DNA from: a virus
DNA length: 59,658 bases
Strand: one strand, 5' to 3'
IMG/VR virus record: IMGVR_UViG_3300047994_000202
Location: 1 to 59,658 of that record
The translations under genes were made by a program, and so were the position numbers. The notes beneath the pieces are model-generated. The model made no database searches, had not been told where the DNA came from, and was given only the letters and a program-made list of their open reading frames with translations. Positions within the stretch are counted from its first letter, which is position 1. Each line of letters opens with the position of its first letter. Below are positions 5,886 through 27,097 of the stretch, one piece after another.

Positions 5886-7088
5886 ATGGCCACTCCCGAC
5901 AAGTTTACCAAAGAAGCAATTCTTGAACAACTCACCCGTGCTCGTATTTCACTTCTCCTACAGCAGCCTTTTTGGGGAACACTGGCTACTCGTCTTATCC
6001 TAAAGGATGCAACTGACGACGAATGGTGCCCCACTGCTGCAACTGATGGTCGTTACTTCTACTACAATCGTAACTTTATCGGTAAGCTGACCAAACCCGA
6101 AACTATTTTCTTGGTAGCTCACGAAGTCGAGCATTGTGTTTACGACCATATGTCACGTCGTGGAAGTCGACTCCCCAAAATGTGGAATGCTGCTGCGGAC
6201 TATGTTATCAATTGGGAACTTCACGAACACAATATCGGTAAGCTTCCCGATCCCAAGACCAGTGGTGTGCAGGCTTGCTTCGACTCGAAGTATAAGGGCA
6301 TGTTTGCTGAAGAAGTTTACGAACTGCTTCTGAAGGACCCGACCGCTAAGTTTCCAGAATTTGACATTCACTTGGAACCAGGTGACGGCAAGGGTACGCC
6401 CATGACTGACGAAGAGCGTCGAATTCTGCAAGACGAGATTCGTGCTGCCGTGATGCAGGCTGCTAAAGCTGCGGGCGCAGGCAATACGCCTGCAGGCGTG
6501 AAGCGTATGCTTAAGGACCTCACTGATCCCCAGATGGACTGGCGAGAGATTCTGAACATGAAACTTCAGTCAATGATTAAGTCTGACTTCACGTGGAGTC
6601 GTTGTTCGCGCAAGGCACAATCCAGCGGCATTTATCTGCCGGCTATGAAGGAAGACGTGCGTGTATCCGCAGCGGTTGCTATCGACTGTTCCGGTTCTAT
6701 GTCGGATGAGATGCTGAGGGATTTGCTTAGTGAAACTAAAGGCATCATGCAACAGTTTACCGACTTTGACTTGATGGTTTGGTGTTTTGATACTCGTGTC
6801 TACAACTTTGCTAAGTTTACTCCAGATACCATCGACGATATCGACCATTATGAAATTAAGGGCGGCGGCGGCACTGACTTTATGTGCAACTGGGAATACA
6901 TGAAGGAAGAAGGTATTGAGCCTGAACGTTTCATTATGATGACTGACGGTTATCCTTGTGGTAGTTGGGGCGACGAGCTCTACTGCGATACTTTGTTTCT
7001 GATTCACGGAGATCCGGGTCATAAGTTGGTTGCACCGTTTGGTATGACAGCGTGGTATGAACCTGACGGTTTTACTAAGAAGAAGTAA
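5886..7088 (+). CDS. VWA-like protein with metallopeptidase-like N-domain (DUF2201 type)
   Basis: 400 aa. N-terminal domain carries H-E-V-E-H (residues 79-83), a zincin-like motif of the predicted metallopeptidase domain found with VWA_2/DUF2201. The C-terminal half has a MIDAS-type D-C-S-G-S-M-S near residue 260 and T-D-G near 350, typical of von Willebrand A domains. Family members pair with MoxR ATPases, which fits the gene at 2391. Possible role: an ATPase-driven metal-dependent chaperone or remodelling complex in the infected cell (inference). Confidence 0.88.
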   Translation: MATPDKFTKEAILEQLTRARISLLLQQPFWGTLATRLILKDATDDEWCPTAATDGRYFYYNRNFIGKLTKPETIFLVAHEVEHCVYDHMSRRGSRLPKMWNAAADYVINWELHEHNIGKLPDPKTSGVQACFDSKYKGMFAEEVYELLLKDPTAKFPEFDIHLEPGDGKGTPMTDEERRILQDEIRAAVMQAAKAAGAGNTPAGVKRMLKDLTDPQMDWREILNMKLQSMIKSDFTWSRCSRKAQSSGIYLPAMKEDVRVSAAVAIDCSGSMSDEMLRDLLSETKGIMQQFTDFDLMVWCFDTRVYNFAKFTPDTIDDIDHYEIKGGGGTDFMCNWEYMKEEGIEPERFIMMTDGYPCGSWGDELYCDTLFLIHGDPGHKLVAPFGMTAWYEPDGFTKKK

Positions 7089-7173
7089 ATGAAACTAAAC
7101 AGCGGTATTAGTGGGCAAATGTCTAAAAGAGACTCTTTTAGACATAGCCCTACACTTACAGAGTCTGCGTTAC

Positions 7174-7191
7174 GATGGCTTTTTAGCCATC
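7174..7191 (+). terminator. Hairpin terminator after VWA gene
   Basis: GATGGCT-TTTT-AGCCATC perfect stem. A second inverted repeat, TCTAAAAGA/TCTTTTAGA, lies just upstream (about 7120-7142). The same TGGCTTTTTAGCCA hairpin recurs near 28770. Confidence 0.7.
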
Positions 7192-7204
7192 GTTCGGTAA
7201 AATA

Positions 7205-7486
7205 ATGTCGGGTTATCTTATTCCCTCCACAGATGCTTTTGTCGAGGATGTAGCTAAAGCAATTGCATTGGGTAGACTAAAAAAGGATGCCGCTTCCGAA
7301 TTAGAGTCCATGATCGGTATGAAAATGGATGATATCTCGGGTATTGAATCCACTTTTGAAAAAGTATTTGAACAGCTATGGTCATCGCCCGGAACAGTAG
7401 CGGAGACTCAGCGTCGTAACTACAGAGAAGATGCATTAGCTGCTATTCGAACCATAAACCTAAAGTTGATCACCTCAATTGAGTGA
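7205..7486 (+). CDS. Hypothetical protein
   Basis: 93 aa, predominantly helical by eye, acidic. No recognised domain. Its TGA overlaps the ATG cluster of the next gene, so the two are probably translated together. Confidence 0.7.
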   Translation: MSGYLIPSTDAFVEDVAKAIALGRLKKDAASELESMIGMKMDDISGIESTFEKVFEQLWSSPGTVAETQRRNYREDALAAIRTINLKLITSIE

Positions 7487-20610: not shown

Positions 20611-20686
20611 GGGACGGCAGCTTGAGTGAAGAAGCAGTGGTCTCATAAACCACAGTCAATCGGTTTGAGTCCGATACGTCCTACCA
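20611..20686 (+). tRNA. tRNA with CAU anticodon (probably tRNA-Ile2)
   Basis: 76 nt with all standard arm lengths: acceptor GGGACGG/ACGTCCT (G1-U72 wobble, 7-66 mismatch), D-arm GCTT/AAGC, anticodon arm GTGGT-CTCATAA-ACCAC, variable AGTCA, T-arm ATCGG-TTTGAGT-CCGAT, encoded ACCA. CAU could mean Met or Ile (C34 changed to lysidine). It lacks the GGG/CCC anticodon stem of initiator tRNA. The tilS gene begins five bases downstream, which favours tRNA-Ile2. The D-loop lacks the usual GG pair. Confidence 0.85.
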
Positions 20687-20691
20687 AATAT

Positions 20692-21294
20692 ATGCCATAT
20701 TGGAACTATTCAAAGTCTGTGCCGCAGGAAATTTTTGTAGCCTGTAGCGGAGGTGTGGATAGTGTCGCAGCGGCAGTCATTCTGTCAGAATGGAGAAATG
20801 TAACTTTATTGCATTTTAGCCATTCTGACAATGTTGCAGATAAAGAGATTGAGGTAGTAAAAAAATTATCAAATAGGTTCAGTATTCCGTTATTGACCAA
20901 ATCCCAGGATAAATCTCAATCTCCCGGTAATTCAGAAGAACAATGGAGAGTTGCAAGATACGAATGGTTCAATTCATTTGATACACCAGTTGTTACTGGA
21001 CATACATTGGATGATGCGGTTGAATGGTATTTAATGACCTGTCTTCGTGGACGAGGCGAATACATGCCAATCGAAAATAATAATGTATTTAGACCATTTC
21101 TTTTTACTGAAAAAAAGTTTTTAATTCAATACGCTGAATCTGCAGGATTAGAATGGTTTGAAGATCCAGGTAATGCCGATCCCGAATTTAGTCTTCGAAG
21201 TAATGTAAGAAAAAATCTTGTACCAGCAGCATTGCTTTGTGAACCGAGTTTGAAAAACATGGTAAAGAAAAGATTAATCGAGAAATACAAATGA
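20692..21294 (+). CDS. tilS: tRNA(Ile)-lysidine synthase, short form
   Basis: 200 aa from ATG 20692; the open frame upstream runs through the tRNA and is not coding. PP-loop ATPase motif S19-G-G-V-D-S24, the T-G-H-T-L-D-D motif (about 104-109) and the E-D-P-G-N ... R-S-N-V-R-K-N-L-V-P segment (about 163-185) are TilS signatures. TilS ligates lysine to C34 of tRNA-Ile(CAU) so that it reads AUA. Only the catalytic domain is present (E. coli TilS is over 400 aa). Placed directly after a CAU tRNA, so enzyme and substrate are encoded together. Confidence 0.9.
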   Translation: MPYWNYSKSVPQEIFVACSGGVDSVAAAVILSEWRNVTLLHFSHSDNVADKEIEVVKKLSNRFSIPLLTKSQDKSQSPGNSEEQWRVARYEWFNSFDTPVVTGHTLDDAVEWYLMTCLRGRGEYMPIENNNVFRPFLFTEKKFLIQYAESAGLEWFEDPGNADPEFSLRSNVRKNLVPAALLCEPSLKNMVKKRLIEKYK

Positions 21295-21500
21295 ACAAAG
21301 ACAAGACAAAGCCATGGAGGGTTGATCTTTACGAATCCGAACGTGGCTGGGGTGGAAAAATAGAAGATAGTGTTTATTTCGATACTTATGAAGAAGCAAA
21401 GACTTATATGAAGGACTATAACAATAAACATAACCCACCCGGACCACCTCCCGATTGGTATATAGTTGCGCTGAGACCGGTAAAGAATAAAATTTCCTAA
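21291..21500 (+). CDS. Hypothetical protein
   Basis: 69 aa, ATGA overlap with tilS. W-R-V-D-L-Y-E-S-E-R-G-W start and W-Y-I-V-A-L-R end suggest a small beta protein. No family recognised. Confidence 0.6.
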   Translation: MNKDKTKPWRVDLYESERGWGGKIEDSVYFDTYEEAKTYMKDYNNKHNPPGPPPDWYIVALRPVKNKIS

Positions 21501-22005
21501 TCGCTAGTCGAGGACAGAGCTATTCCAGTTCCGATCTACTGAAAAGTATAAACGGATGGTAGGCGGCTGAATCTGTCATTAGGAAAAGGTGCAGACTGAT
21601 AATTTGCACAGATAGTAGAATACATTGTAATTGGAATAATGTTGACGGACACCAATTGCACCCTATATTCGTGATTATCAATGCAGTGGGTGTCTAACTC
21701 TGGACACAGGTAATGGGAGCATGATTGCAAACGGCATTCCGGGTTACTCGGATAAGAGTATGTTCGTCGAGCGATCCGATACTCTGCGATTACCAACTAT
21801 TTTGTAAGAATGCTAACCATGGCATAAGTGGAGCCAATCATTGTAAGATGCTGTAAACTTCTTGCAGGAAGGTGTTATTATAGAATGTATGCAACTTTCA
21901 TACACACTTTAATAATACAGGCAGTGTAAGTATTATAGGGTAAAAGGCGGTTAAACCGTAATAACTTATTCTCTAATCGCGACTGTCACTAATATCATTA
22001 TCCAG
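21501..22005 (+). ncRNA. Candidate structured RNA(s), ~500 nt
   Basis: No gene on either strand is convincing. Nested stems are visible: ATTCCAGTT/AATTGGAAT (about 21520/21638) enclosing TCTACT/AGTAGA and GTGCA/TGCAC; GGACACC/GGTGTCT (about 21648/21690) enclosing TTGCA/TGCAG; GGTAAT/ATTACC enclosing AGAGTAT/ATACTCT (about 21767/21777-21784). The regular nesting suggests one or more folded RNAs beside the tRNA genes. No known class recognised. Confidence 0.5.
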
Positions 22006-22034
22006 TTGACCGGATATATTAGCCCGTGCATAAT
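22006..22034 (+). promoter_or_regulatory. Sigma70-type promoter giving a leaderless transcript
   Basis: TTGACC, 17-base spacer, CATAAT; the ATG at 22041 is six bases past the -10 box, at the expected start of transcription, and has no Shine-Dalgarno. Confidence 0.75.
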
Positions 22035-23518: not shown

Positions 23519-23838
23519 GCCCCGGTGGTGAAATGGTAGACACAAGGGAGGACCAGAAAGCCCGTCCCCTTCAATTAGAAATAATTGAATAAACTGTGGG
23601 TTAATTCGGGAGAGCCTGTAAAATGGCGATCGCGAGCCAAGCAGATAATACATTATCTGAAGGTGTAGAGACTACTGGAGAGGTTTAGCCCTCTTAATAA
23701 CCAGCTTAGAACGCCCACTACCTGAACAGGTTATGCTGAAGGTAAAGAGATAGTCCATGCTAATAGGAAACTTTTAGACAACATGCTTAAAATCCCTCGC
23801 CGAAAGGCATGCCGGTTCGAGTCCGGCCCGGGGCACCA
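23519..23838 (+). tRNA. tRNA-Leu(UAA) interrupted by a group I intron
   Basis: 5' exon: acceptor GCCCCGG, D-arm GTG/CAC and AGGGA. 3' exon: CTTAAAA loop and TCCCT, variable arm GCC-GAAA-GGC, T-arm GCCGG-TTCGAGT-CCGGC, acceptor CCGGGGC, encoded ACCA. Joining 23549 to 23786 gives a canonical tRNA-Leu with anticodon UAA (loop C-T-T-A-A-A-A). The break falls at the start of the anticodon loop. Confidence 0.9.
23550..23785 (+). ncRNA. Group I self-splicing intron (236 nt)
   Basis: Conserved P/Q/R/S-like elements are present: AATTCGGGAG region, then R-like GTAGAGACTACT and S-like AAAGAGATAGTCC, whose GACTA/TAGTC pair forms P7. The last base is G, as required. GGAC/GTCC plus exon AAGGG pairing with CCTT can form P1 around the 5' splice site, although the expected U-G pair at the cut is not evident. 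No open frame inside. Confidence 0.85.
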
Positions 23839-23953
23839 CAGATATCAGTTACGAAGTACCTAATCCTGTATACTGCGGTTCCTACAGGAGGCTATAAAAT
23901 AATCGTTTCACAACAGTTTGGTTAGGCTGTTGGCTGTTTTTTAAGAAAGTAAA

Positions 23954-24061: not shown

Positions 24062-24424
24062 ATGGCTCAAGAAAAAATCACCATCATCTGCCCGGCGAAT
24101 TATCACAACAAGGTTGCGGTCATCAAGGCTATTCGTACCCTGACTGGAATTGGATTGAAGGAAGCCAAGGATGCTTCCGAAAGGGTGGGAGAGGCTCAGA
24201 CCTTCGATTTGCAAGACATGTCATCCTATGGCAATGCGAGCCAGATCATCGAGGAACAGATACGAATACTTCGCAACGAAGGCGTAAATGTCGGTGAACC
24301 TGTTCATAGGCTGCTGGAAGAGCTTCGTAAGCTGGGCGCTGCTGCGCTTCAGCAAGGTGAAGACGAACTTGCTAATGAAATCCTTCAACTTGTTCTTGCA
24401 GAGAAGTTGCGCAGAAAGCCATAA
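24062..24424 (+). CDS. Ribosomal protein L7/L12 C-terminal-domain-like protein
   Basis: 120 aa. K-V-A-V-I-K-A-I-R-T-L-T-G-I-G-L-K-E-A-K-D (about residues 17-37) is the signature helix-turn of the L7/L12 CTD that binds translation GTPases, followed by the expected I-x-x-L-R-x-x-G-V-N-V strand. The usual L7/L12 N-terminal dimer domain is absent; instead there is a helical tail rich in Leu/Glu. It may compete for or recruit EF-G/EF-Tu-type factors (inference). Confidence 0.85.
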   Translation: MAQEKITIICPANYHNKVAVIKAIRTLTGIGLKEAKDASERVGEAQTFDLQDMSSYGNASQIIEEQIRILRNEGVNVGEPVHRLLEELRKLGAAALQQGEDELANEILQLVLAEKLRRKP

Positions 24425-25598: not shown

Positions 25599-25627
25599 TT
25601 GACATTTTTCTCATGTTAAGACATAAT
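25599..25627 (+). promoter_or_regulatory. Sigma70-type promoter for tRNA-like RNAs
   Basis: TTGACA, 17-base spacer, CATAAT, consensus-like; transcription would start near 25634, just before the tRNA-like sequences. Confidence 0.8.
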
Positions 25628-25636
25628 AGCTACATG

Positions 25637-25730
25637 CGTTGGTAAGGGGCCTGTACATCTTCTTACTAAAAGGCTGCGCCGACCTACTTATTAAAGATAC
25701 GGTAGGGGTTCGAGTCCCCGAGGAACTTTT
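25637..25730 (+). ncRNA. tRNA-like or structured RNA with T-arm motif
   Basis: Contains GGGG-TTCGAGT-CCCC, a perfect T-arm-like hairpin (about 25701-25715), preceded by stems GTTGG/CCGAC enclosing GGCCT/AGGCT, and CCTAC/GTAGG. No complementary acceptor strands, so not a normal tRNA. Confidence 0.45.
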
Positions 25731-25738
25731 CAAATACG

Positions 25739-25834
25739 CTCTTGAAATGGGGATGCTACGGATATAGTTGCTATAAGACCCTGCAAGCATGTCTGATTAG
25801 CTATTCGTTGTTTGGTTCGAGACCGAAGCAAGAG
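25739..25834 (+). ncRNA. Second tRNA-like RNA
   Basis: Ends CTCTTGA/GCAAGAG can pair as an acceptor (last pair mismatched) and TTTGG-TTCGAGA-CCGAA is a good T-arm. The interior (GGG..CCC, TATAG-TTG-CTATA) does not give a standard D or anticodon arm and no CCA is encoded. 96 nt, class II-like length. Confidence 0.45.
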
Positions 25835-25860
25835 TTTTACATTCTACATAAGGAAACAAA

Positions 25861-26250
25861 ATGAAACAAGTTACTCCAAAACAAATTTACAAGCGGTGGC
25901 TGGCCGCACTTCGCTCTGGAAAATATAAGCAGAGTAGAGGGCGTCTTCGCGAATGCAGATACAGCTATTTAAACGGCGATTTTGACACCGCAGTGGTGTC
26001 AGAGGTCTACGGCTATTGTTGCTTGGGAGTTCTGCAGGATTTGGCAGTGAAGGATGGCGGACCAGGTTGGAACACCAAACACGGTGTAACCGATGATGAT
26101 GGTGCCCCAAGCAACAAGATCCTTAACTTCATGGGTCTTGACAGTGAGATGGTTAATCATTTGGTCGAACTGAATGACGATGAAGTCAAATCCTTTGCTG
26201 AGATTGCTGATGTAATCGAATTCGAAATCATGCCAGCTACCGGTAACTAA
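25861..26250 (+). CDS. Conserved phage protein
   Basis: 129 aa. R-W-L-A-A-L-R-S-G-K-Y-x-Q-x-x-G ... Y-C-C-L-G-V-L is a pattern I know from many tailed-phage proteins with no assigned role. AAGGAAAC ribosome-binding site. Confidence 0.75.
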   Translation: MKQVTPKQIYKRWLAALRSGKYKQSRGRLRECRYSYLNGDFDTAVVSEVYGYCCLGVLQDLAVKDGGPGWNTKHGVTDDDGAPSNKILNFMGLDSEMVNHLVELNDDEVKSFAEIADVIEFEIMPATGN

Positions 26251-26350: not shown

Positions 26351-27047
26351 ACACTGCTAATGCTGGCAGTGGCGGTGCCGCAGTGGGTTCATGTTTTATT
26401 CCCGACTGTATATCATGTGGGATATGGCACTTAATCCTATGTAGATCCGATTCTACTGTTATAATCGGAAATTGCACAACTGATGAGTTCACGTGAGAAC
26501 GAAATGGTCGGATTGTAGAGAACGTAAGAGTTTTCCAATCCGCAAGGATAATTGACTCCAGTGGGGACTGCACTGTTGAGACTCATCCTTGTGAACCATA
26601 TTGTGCTGAAGTACCCTGGGCTCTAAAAAGCATCGGCAGGGAAGATAGGCCAAGCCCTCTGAACGATGGGTGCCGGAACGCTGGCCACCGATAGATTCGT
26701 TTATGGATATGGATGATAAATATATACCTTGTAATAAACGGAAAGAAACGGAAATAACCTAACCCGATTTATCGGCTTGAGGAGATATATCCAAGATACT
26801 AACCCTGATCACAAAGGGGCCTGACGCCCCGGCCACTCCTTGTTGCTCGGCATTGCGAGGTCAAGAGATGCAATATTGTTAATGTAAATTGGAAACTTAG
26901 TCTCTGAGAACACTGGAGGAAAGGTAACTGGAACTCCCAGAAACCAAGTACATAGAAGGTGCAGAGGCGGAAGATCGATGCTGTAGCCGGTGTCGACAAA
27001 GTGAAAACGATGGGCCCTGCTTAATCCGGAACTGTCCCGGTTGCAGG
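26351..27047 (+). ncRNA. Long structured non-coding region with embedded hammerhead
   Basis: About 700 bases without a convincing gene on either strand. Visible elements in order: GC-rich inverted repeats near 26364-26390, CCGATT/AATCGG (about 26447/26463), a hammerhead ribozyme (26474-26606), CATCG/CGATG enclosing AGGG/CCCT (about 26630-26673), GGGGC/GCCCC (about 26817-26831), and a final stem GCCCTGC/GCAGGGC followed by TTTCTT (about 27014-27050) that looks like a terminator. Probably one long RNA, or several, processed by the ribozyme. Confidence 0.55.
26474..26606 (+). ncRNA. Hammerhead ribozyme (type I) with branched stem III
   Basis: Core CTGATGA (26480-26486), stem II GTTC-ACGTGA-GAAC (26487-26500) and GAAA (26501-26504) match the hammerhead consensus exactly. 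Stem I pairs GCACAA (26474-26479) with TTGTGC (26601-26606). Stem III pairs TGGT (26505-26508) with ACCA (26595-26598); U at 26599 pairs with the A of GAAA, and A at 26600 is the cleavage-site base, so cutting is expected after 26600. Stem III is capped by two adjoining hairpins, CGGATTG/CAATCCG (26509-26542) and CAAGGAT/ATCCTTG (26543-26591). Confidence 0.88.
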
Positions 27048-27069
27048 GCTTTCTTCTGACTAATGTTAG

Positions 27070-27097
27070 TTGACTTATACAAAAACTATGTTATAAT
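27070..27097 (+). promoter_or_regulatory. Sigma70-type promoter
   Basis: TTGACT, 16-base spacer, TATAAT, 20 bases before the start at 27118. Confidence 0.75.

Follow-up and report, generated by a model that had tools for sequence, protein, structure and literature searches.

What hammerhead ribozymes do in phages is unsettled in biology, and the locus described here poses the question in a concrete form: what is a hammerhead doing in the tRNA-rich region of a giant phage? The window, i.e., the whole 59,658-base virus record IMGVR_UViG_3300047994_000202, is a jumbo phage fragment, and reading of its sequence revealed a complete type-I hammerhead at positions 26474 to 26606 (Table 1).

Anatomy of the hammerhead

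An initial annotation of this DNA had listed a complete conserved core (CUGAUGA, GAAA, and U-A at the cleavage site), and all of these elements are present in the window sequence. The perfect pairing it described for stems I to III could also be read directly from the sequence, with the correction that stem III has only 5 bp, A26504 and UGGU pairing with ACCA and U26599, including the A15.1-U16.1 pair. The cleavage site is AUA with A26600 as H17, which agrees with the cut proposed after 26600 and would place it between 26600 and 26601. That the DNA is of phage origin and has tRNA-like neighbors holds as well. The core (CUGANGA, GAA, and the A15.1-U16.1 pair) is found in the window and in all homologs described below, all of which have AUA or GUA as the NUH site and an open-ended stem I that contains the 5' and 3' ends of the motif. 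Judged from its sequence, the element is a genuine type-I hammerhead.

Stem II differs among the relatives (GUCC-GGAA-GGAC, GUUG..CAAC, and GUCG-GCAA-CGAC), and loop II is of the GNRA type in several members; for a contact between loop II and stem I, no receptor was identified in stem I. Two of the 14 copies have stem II defects, an extra U within the stem in G027 and a U-U at its base in G025, and may therefore be slow or inactive. The energy minimum of the window copy is another fold, in which GUUCAC pairs with GUGAAC and which is 3 kcal/mol better than the hammerhead (-44.0 versus -41.0); this alternative pairing was not found in the homologs examined by reading. The hammerhead of the other members is the energy minimum or within about 4 kcal/mol of it, several being at the minimum.

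The two back-to-back 7-bp hairpins described on stem III are present and abut each other, except that three unpaired bases, UGA (26592 to 26594), follow them on the 3' side of the three-way junction. The branch, which had been taken as a new architecture, is real but not fixed: a second hairpin on stem III occurs in only 4 of the 14 homologs (the window, G044, G029, and G024), as a lineage-specific elaboration, and most members outside these four have a single long stem III. A conserved type of asymmetric 5x2 internal loop lies in stem III between two covarying helices in 11 of 14 members, a permissive count because the script required merely any five bases opposite UC; UUGUA opposite UC is exact in six members, and the remaining carriers have variants. 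The three copies in which the same script detected none are those of the window, G044, and G025. Several members have an apical GUUCGGGA on stem III, and the cap varies across the family in length (45 to 140 nt) and in form. The branched cap appears to be one version of a conserved stem III domain, which hammerhead chemistry can do without.

Table 1. Features of the ribozyme locus, in window positions
Feature	Positions	Strand	Basis or remark
Sigma-70 promoter TTGACA-17-CATAAT (11/12)	25599..25627	+	Nearest strong promoter 5' of the window ribozyme
Degenerate tRNA-like element, T-arm GGGGTTCGAGTCCCC	25640..25733	+	Sequence; counterpart in relatives; no ARAGORN call
tRNA-like RNA, acceptor-type helix GCUCUUG/CAAGAGU and T-arm, odd middle part	25738..25836	+	z -2.1
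ORF, 129 aa, partial match to phrog_18067 (function unknown)	25861..26250	+	Family search
Possible extended -10 (TGTTATAAT), would start transcript at ~26472	26457..26465	+	Sequence; best promoter score 8/12
Stem I, 5' strand GCACAA	26474..26479	+	Sequence; relatives; pairs with UUGUGC 26601-26606
Catalytic core CUGAUGA	26480..26486	+	Sequence; CUGANGA in 14/14 homologs
Stem II GUUC-ACGUGA-GAAC	26487..26500	+	Strands 26487-26490 and 26497-26500; covaries in relatives
Core GAA and A15.1 (GAAA)	26501..26504	+	Sequence; relatives
Stem III, 5' strand UGGU	26505..26508	+	Pairs with ACCA 26595-26598
First hairpin of branched stem III cap, CGGAUUG/CAAUCCG	26509..26542	+	Folding; branched caps also in G044, G029, G024
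Second hairpin of branched cap, CAAGGAU/AUCCUUG	26543..26591	+	Folding
Stem III, 3' strand ACCA, with U16.1 (26599) and H17 (A26600)	26595..26600	+	Predicted cut 26600/26601
Stem I, 3' strand UUGUGC, first bases of predicted released RNA	26601..26606	+	Sequence; relatives
Predicted released structured non-coding RNA, about 455 nt	26601..27057	+	No Rfam match
Most conserved element of released RNA, GGAGAUAUAUCC	26781..26792	+	Family comparison
GGGGC/GCCCC hairpin, then GGCCACU	26816..26837	+	Kept in most of the family
Terminator GCCCTGC/GCAGGGC with internal arm, then TTTCTTCT	27014..27057	+	Sequence; family terminators
Promoter TTGACT-16-TATAAT of next unit	27070..27097	+	Promoter scan

Homologous loci and covariation

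A search of related phages, as the initial annotation had suggested, found hammerhead homologs in 13 other phage records, giving 14 distinct loci (the window, G044, G029, G024, G023, G011, G017, L153, L139, G027, G039, G025, G065, and G026). The metallopeptidase-like gene at 5886 to 7088 in the window has many relatives, including in records of 362 to 385 kb; a DNA search with the window region gave weak matches to those records, several of them collinear, and hammerheads were found there by reading. The set was enlarged to 14 by pattern scans, a neighboring-gene search, and a covariance model, which was built from eight members, window included, and recovered the six others with one copy per locus. 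In all seven relatives examined for synteny, the ribozyme occupies the corresponding genomic place in a tRNA-rich region. Phage isolates searched by BLASTN with the window region and with the G011 copy gave no match, the 129-aa ORF used as bait found no relatives, and a scan for exact copies of the window ribozyme had no match elsewhere. The cultured jumbo phages PA5oct, Phosso, Atu_ph07, GAP32, and SCTP-2 gave no convincing match (best E value, 0.76).

Stems I to III are all backed by compensatory changes across the 14 homologs. The 14-member alignment was fitted to the model structure and its members are related to one another, which biases the pair and covariation counts upwards. Of its pair cells, 94.9% hold standard pairs, two-sided changes occur in 15 of 20 pairs, and covariation is 0.54 versus 0.21 in shuffles, with 0 of 500 shuffles as high; slid partners, as a control, pair at 29 to 52%. 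A strand-swap control with 12 members, independent of that alignment, lowered stem pairing from 94% to 65%. Even the conserved stem I has compensatory changes (A-U to G-C in G024 and C-G to U-A in G026), and 12 of 14 members keep a standard core together with compensated stems. Core bases that vary while the flanks are conserved had been named as the pattern that would speak against a ribozyme. We looked for this pattern and saw the opposite, the core being kept in 14/14 copies and the stems and flanks varying.

The suggested comparison with the Rfam hammerhead models was also run. Rfam 15 did not report the window copy at the gathering threshold or at an E value of ≤5, and the relatives scored 20.8 to 28.0 bits, below the gathering threshold of 48.5 for RF00008, which is a detection limit and not a defining chemical feature. 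The family is a hammerhead subfamily that is missed or underscored, probably owing to its long stem III, since the standard models presumably expect a short one. A structural descriptor gave one match in the window and, besides recognizable hammerheads, two doubtful matches in 4.0 Mb counted on both strands.

The transcription unit and its surroundings

In the window, the unit begins with the promoter at 25599, takes in two tRNA-like elements, the ORF, and the ribozyme, and ends with the terminator at 27014 to 27057; no terminator-like signal lies between this promoter and the ribozyme. Across the family, the nearest strong sigma-70 promoter typically lies 120 to 890 nt upstream of the ribozyme, likewise with no terminator-like signal between them. 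The exceptions are G044, with a promoter about 50 nt upstream, and G039, with the nearest one at 2.4 kb; for G024, no strong sigma-70 promoter was found within 2.5 kb upstream. The ribozyme starts 1 to 21 nt past the stop codon of an upstream ORF in 6 of 14 loci, which leaves a promoter little room before it. Because of the close promoter in G044 and the possible extended -10 element in the window, these two ribozymes may remove their own leader instead of dividing a polycistronic RNA. The 14 loci abound in near-consensus sigma-70 promoters (TTGAC-N16-18-TATAAT), which are strand-biased, with 79 sense versus 1 antisense. A T4-like late promoter (TATAAATA) before the ribozyme was suggestive in several members and was rejected, since it is not enriched overall (19 sense versus 17.8 expected).

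The upstream neighbor of the ribozyme varies across the family and is either an ORF or a tRNA-like RNA. Between promoter and ribozyme, G011, G023, L153, L139, and G065 have no convincing gene and several structured RNAs, some of them tRNA-like by T-arm and acceptor helix (read by eye, with no ARAGORN call); in these five records the unit appears to be wholly non-coding. The tRNA-like RNA at 25738 to 25836 of the window has counterparts in G011, G023, and L153. A series of tRNA-like RNAs with a normal T-arm and acceptor helix and abnormal middle parts was observed ~520 bases upstream of the ribozyme in L308, L309, L153, L325, and L307, and a further element, GTCCCACCCAAGAAGCA ... GCGGGCA, is common to L153, L139, L325, and L307; these are possibly their own kind of non-coding RNAs.

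Downstream of the ribozyme, each of the 14 loci has a structured RNA that ends at an intrinsic terminator. The ribozyme had been described as embedded in a long RNA, and a long structured RNA is indeed present; more precisely, the ribozyme is the 5' boundary of a terminator-ended RNA. The script-measured length of this RNA is 205 to 455 nt in 13 of 14 loci; in G024, the script stopped early, and the true terminator lies further on in the sequence. The GGAGAUAUAUCCAAA element, exact or slightly varied, recurs in most members, as do a GGGG/CCCC hairpin and a GGCCACU element with another hairpin after it. The downstream domain covaries on its own, with two-sided changes in 19 of 32 pairs and 0 of 500 shuffles as high among the eight members that the core model, R1, reaches. 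R1 was built from five close members and misses the window, G044, G029, G024, G026, and G065 copies, and downstream homology in these therefore rests on motifs, order, and synteny. At permissive E values, no Rfam family matched the downstream RNA of the window and 12 relatives (all loci except L153), and the GOLLD and ROOL models gave no match in the same set. The downstream RNA has a good chance of being a new family, and this terminator-ended RNA with the ribozyme at its 5' boundary is the more novel part of the locus.

Elsewhere in the window, a group I intron (Rfam, 23544 to 23777) lies within an apparent tRNA-Leu gene (23520 to 23840); the tRNA region of G027 likewise contains a group I intron, and several relatives have an intron-less tRNA-Leu. 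A second hairpin-rich stretch of ~500 bases (21500 to 22020) has no obvious gene, adjoins tRNA genes, and possibly encodes a further structured RNA. Two phage genes may touch translation: one for a PP-loop ATPase of the TilS/QueC kind (20626 to 21294), just 3' of a tRNA-like sequence, and one whose protein matches the ribosomal L7/L12 C-terminal domain (24062 to 24424). Canonical hammerheads were seen in other phage records. Contigs L152, L160, L175, and L176 have two to four short ones each, ~640 to 1300 bases apart, and L350 (G048, IMGVR_UViG_3300027834_000005) has two directly before tRNAs at 7020 to 7304, just these two being found in the 347-kb record, with 27 called tRNAs in the surrounding 20-kb stretch. 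The L350 hammerheads, with stem I made with the acceptor strand, would cut after GUC exactly at tRNA position 1; the ARAGORN tRNA-Tyr starts at 7222, and the predicted cut is after 7221. The L350 hammerhead is thus apparently doing the job of RNase P.

Role of the ribozyme and relation to known systems

The core, the covarying stems, and the order of ribozyme, structured RNA, and terminator are established, as is the conserved place of these loci. We consider it quite likely that, in this jumbo-phage lineage, the hammerhead creates the 5' end of a structured non-coding RNA through a co-transcriptional cut that leaves a 5'-OH product, and we infer actual cleavage from the intact, covarying core. 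RNA polymerase would start at the upstream sigma-70 promoter and read the tRNA-like RNAs (in some phages, small genes) into the ribozyme, which would fold while emerging and cut after A26600. The upstream product would end in a 2',3'-cyclic phosphate and retain most of the ribozyme, and the downstream product would be a 5'-OH RNA of ~455 nt (about 205 to 455 nt in the relatives) with its 3' end from the intrinsic terminator. RNase E is attracted by a 5' phosphate, which a 5'-OH end does not carry, and the released RNA could therefore be stabilized. Co-transcription with the upstream RNAs, this stabilization, and any function of the released RNA we likewise infer. A larger claim has, in our judgment, a slightly better than even chance of holding: that this is a new class of jumbo-phage non-coding RNA, made from an all-non-coding operon of promoter, tRNA-like RNAs, hammerhead, structured RNA, and terminator, with its 5' end set by the hammerhead via a specialized stem III domain, and functional in infection.

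The ribozyme might instead mainly serve the upstream RNA, giving tRNA-like RNAs or an mRNA a defined 3' end, with the downstream part as a structured 3' trailer and terminator. tRNA-like RNAs or genes do lie directly 5' in many members, theta ribozymes of phages trim tRNA 3' trailers (PMC10879173), and hammerheads of prophages have been proposed to divide long transcripts into pieces of gene length (PMC3088659). However, the conserved partner lies downstream whereas the upstream neighbor varies, and a cut would leave the whole 80- to 180-nt ribozyme on the upstream product, a poor way of finishing a tRNA 3' end; we regard this explanation as unlikely. A natural aptazyme, in which the stem III domain senses a ligand or protein and gates cleavage, would be compatible with the formation of a 5' end by the hammerhead. 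The internal loop between covarying helices, unneeded for hammerhead catalysis, as well as the apical GUUCGGGA and the elaborate caps, would fit such a sensor, but the variable cap, the copies in which the script found no loop, and the fact that no ligand-linked gene context was seen make it a rather improbable reading.

If the hammerhead were a decayed or inactive remnant, its conserved structure would be just a domain of a large RNA. The stem II defects in two members and the alternative energy minimum of the window copy point that way, but the other 12 members have a standard core and compensated stems and the hammerhead is the energy minimum in several, and we find a remnant very unlikely. 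A chance resemblance in hairpin-rich DNA draws on nothing except the failure of Rfam to report the window copy; covariation in the homologs already refutes it, the false-positive rate of the descriptor is low, and its probability is negligible. A circular RNA produced by two flanking hammerheads was ruled out for the window, where the descriptor detected a single one.

At 14 phage loci the hammerhead goes together with one and the same conserved downstream RNA, and a concrete role, maturing the 5' end of a non-coding RNA, thereby becomes directly testable. If this role holds, these giant phages shape their own RNA without an enzyme. The loci also bring to light a structured phage RNA family absent from Rfam. 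In the open-licence papers searched, no hammerhead was described as serving one conserved structured phage RNA, and an earlier description elsewhere is possible.

Prophage hammerheads are already described in the literature, together with the proposal that they cut phage transcripts into pieces (PMC3088659). The present family shares with phage and prophage type-I hammerheads (PMC3088659, Perreault et al. 2011; RF00163 and RF00008) the common core, three stems, open stem I, and NUH site, and likewise lies in phage DNA, within a predicted long transcript. It differs in its long stem III (45 to 140 nt) with an internal loop or branched cap, in its AUA or GUA site, in always being followed by one structured RNA and a terminator, and in scoring below the Rfam thresholds. 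GOLLD and ROOL are large structured phage RNAs near tRNA islands, of unknown function, and the paper describing them does not mention hammerheads (PMC12286853). The present RNA is similarly a structured phage RNA in a tRNA-rich region but is shorter and does not match their Rfam families. Theta (HDV-like) ribozymes, which trim phage tRNA 3' ends (PMC10879173), are alike in being small ribozymes that act on non-coding RNA of phages within tRNA regions. They are of another class, however, and cut at tRNA 3' ends, whereas the present hammerhead would make the 5' end of a different RNA.
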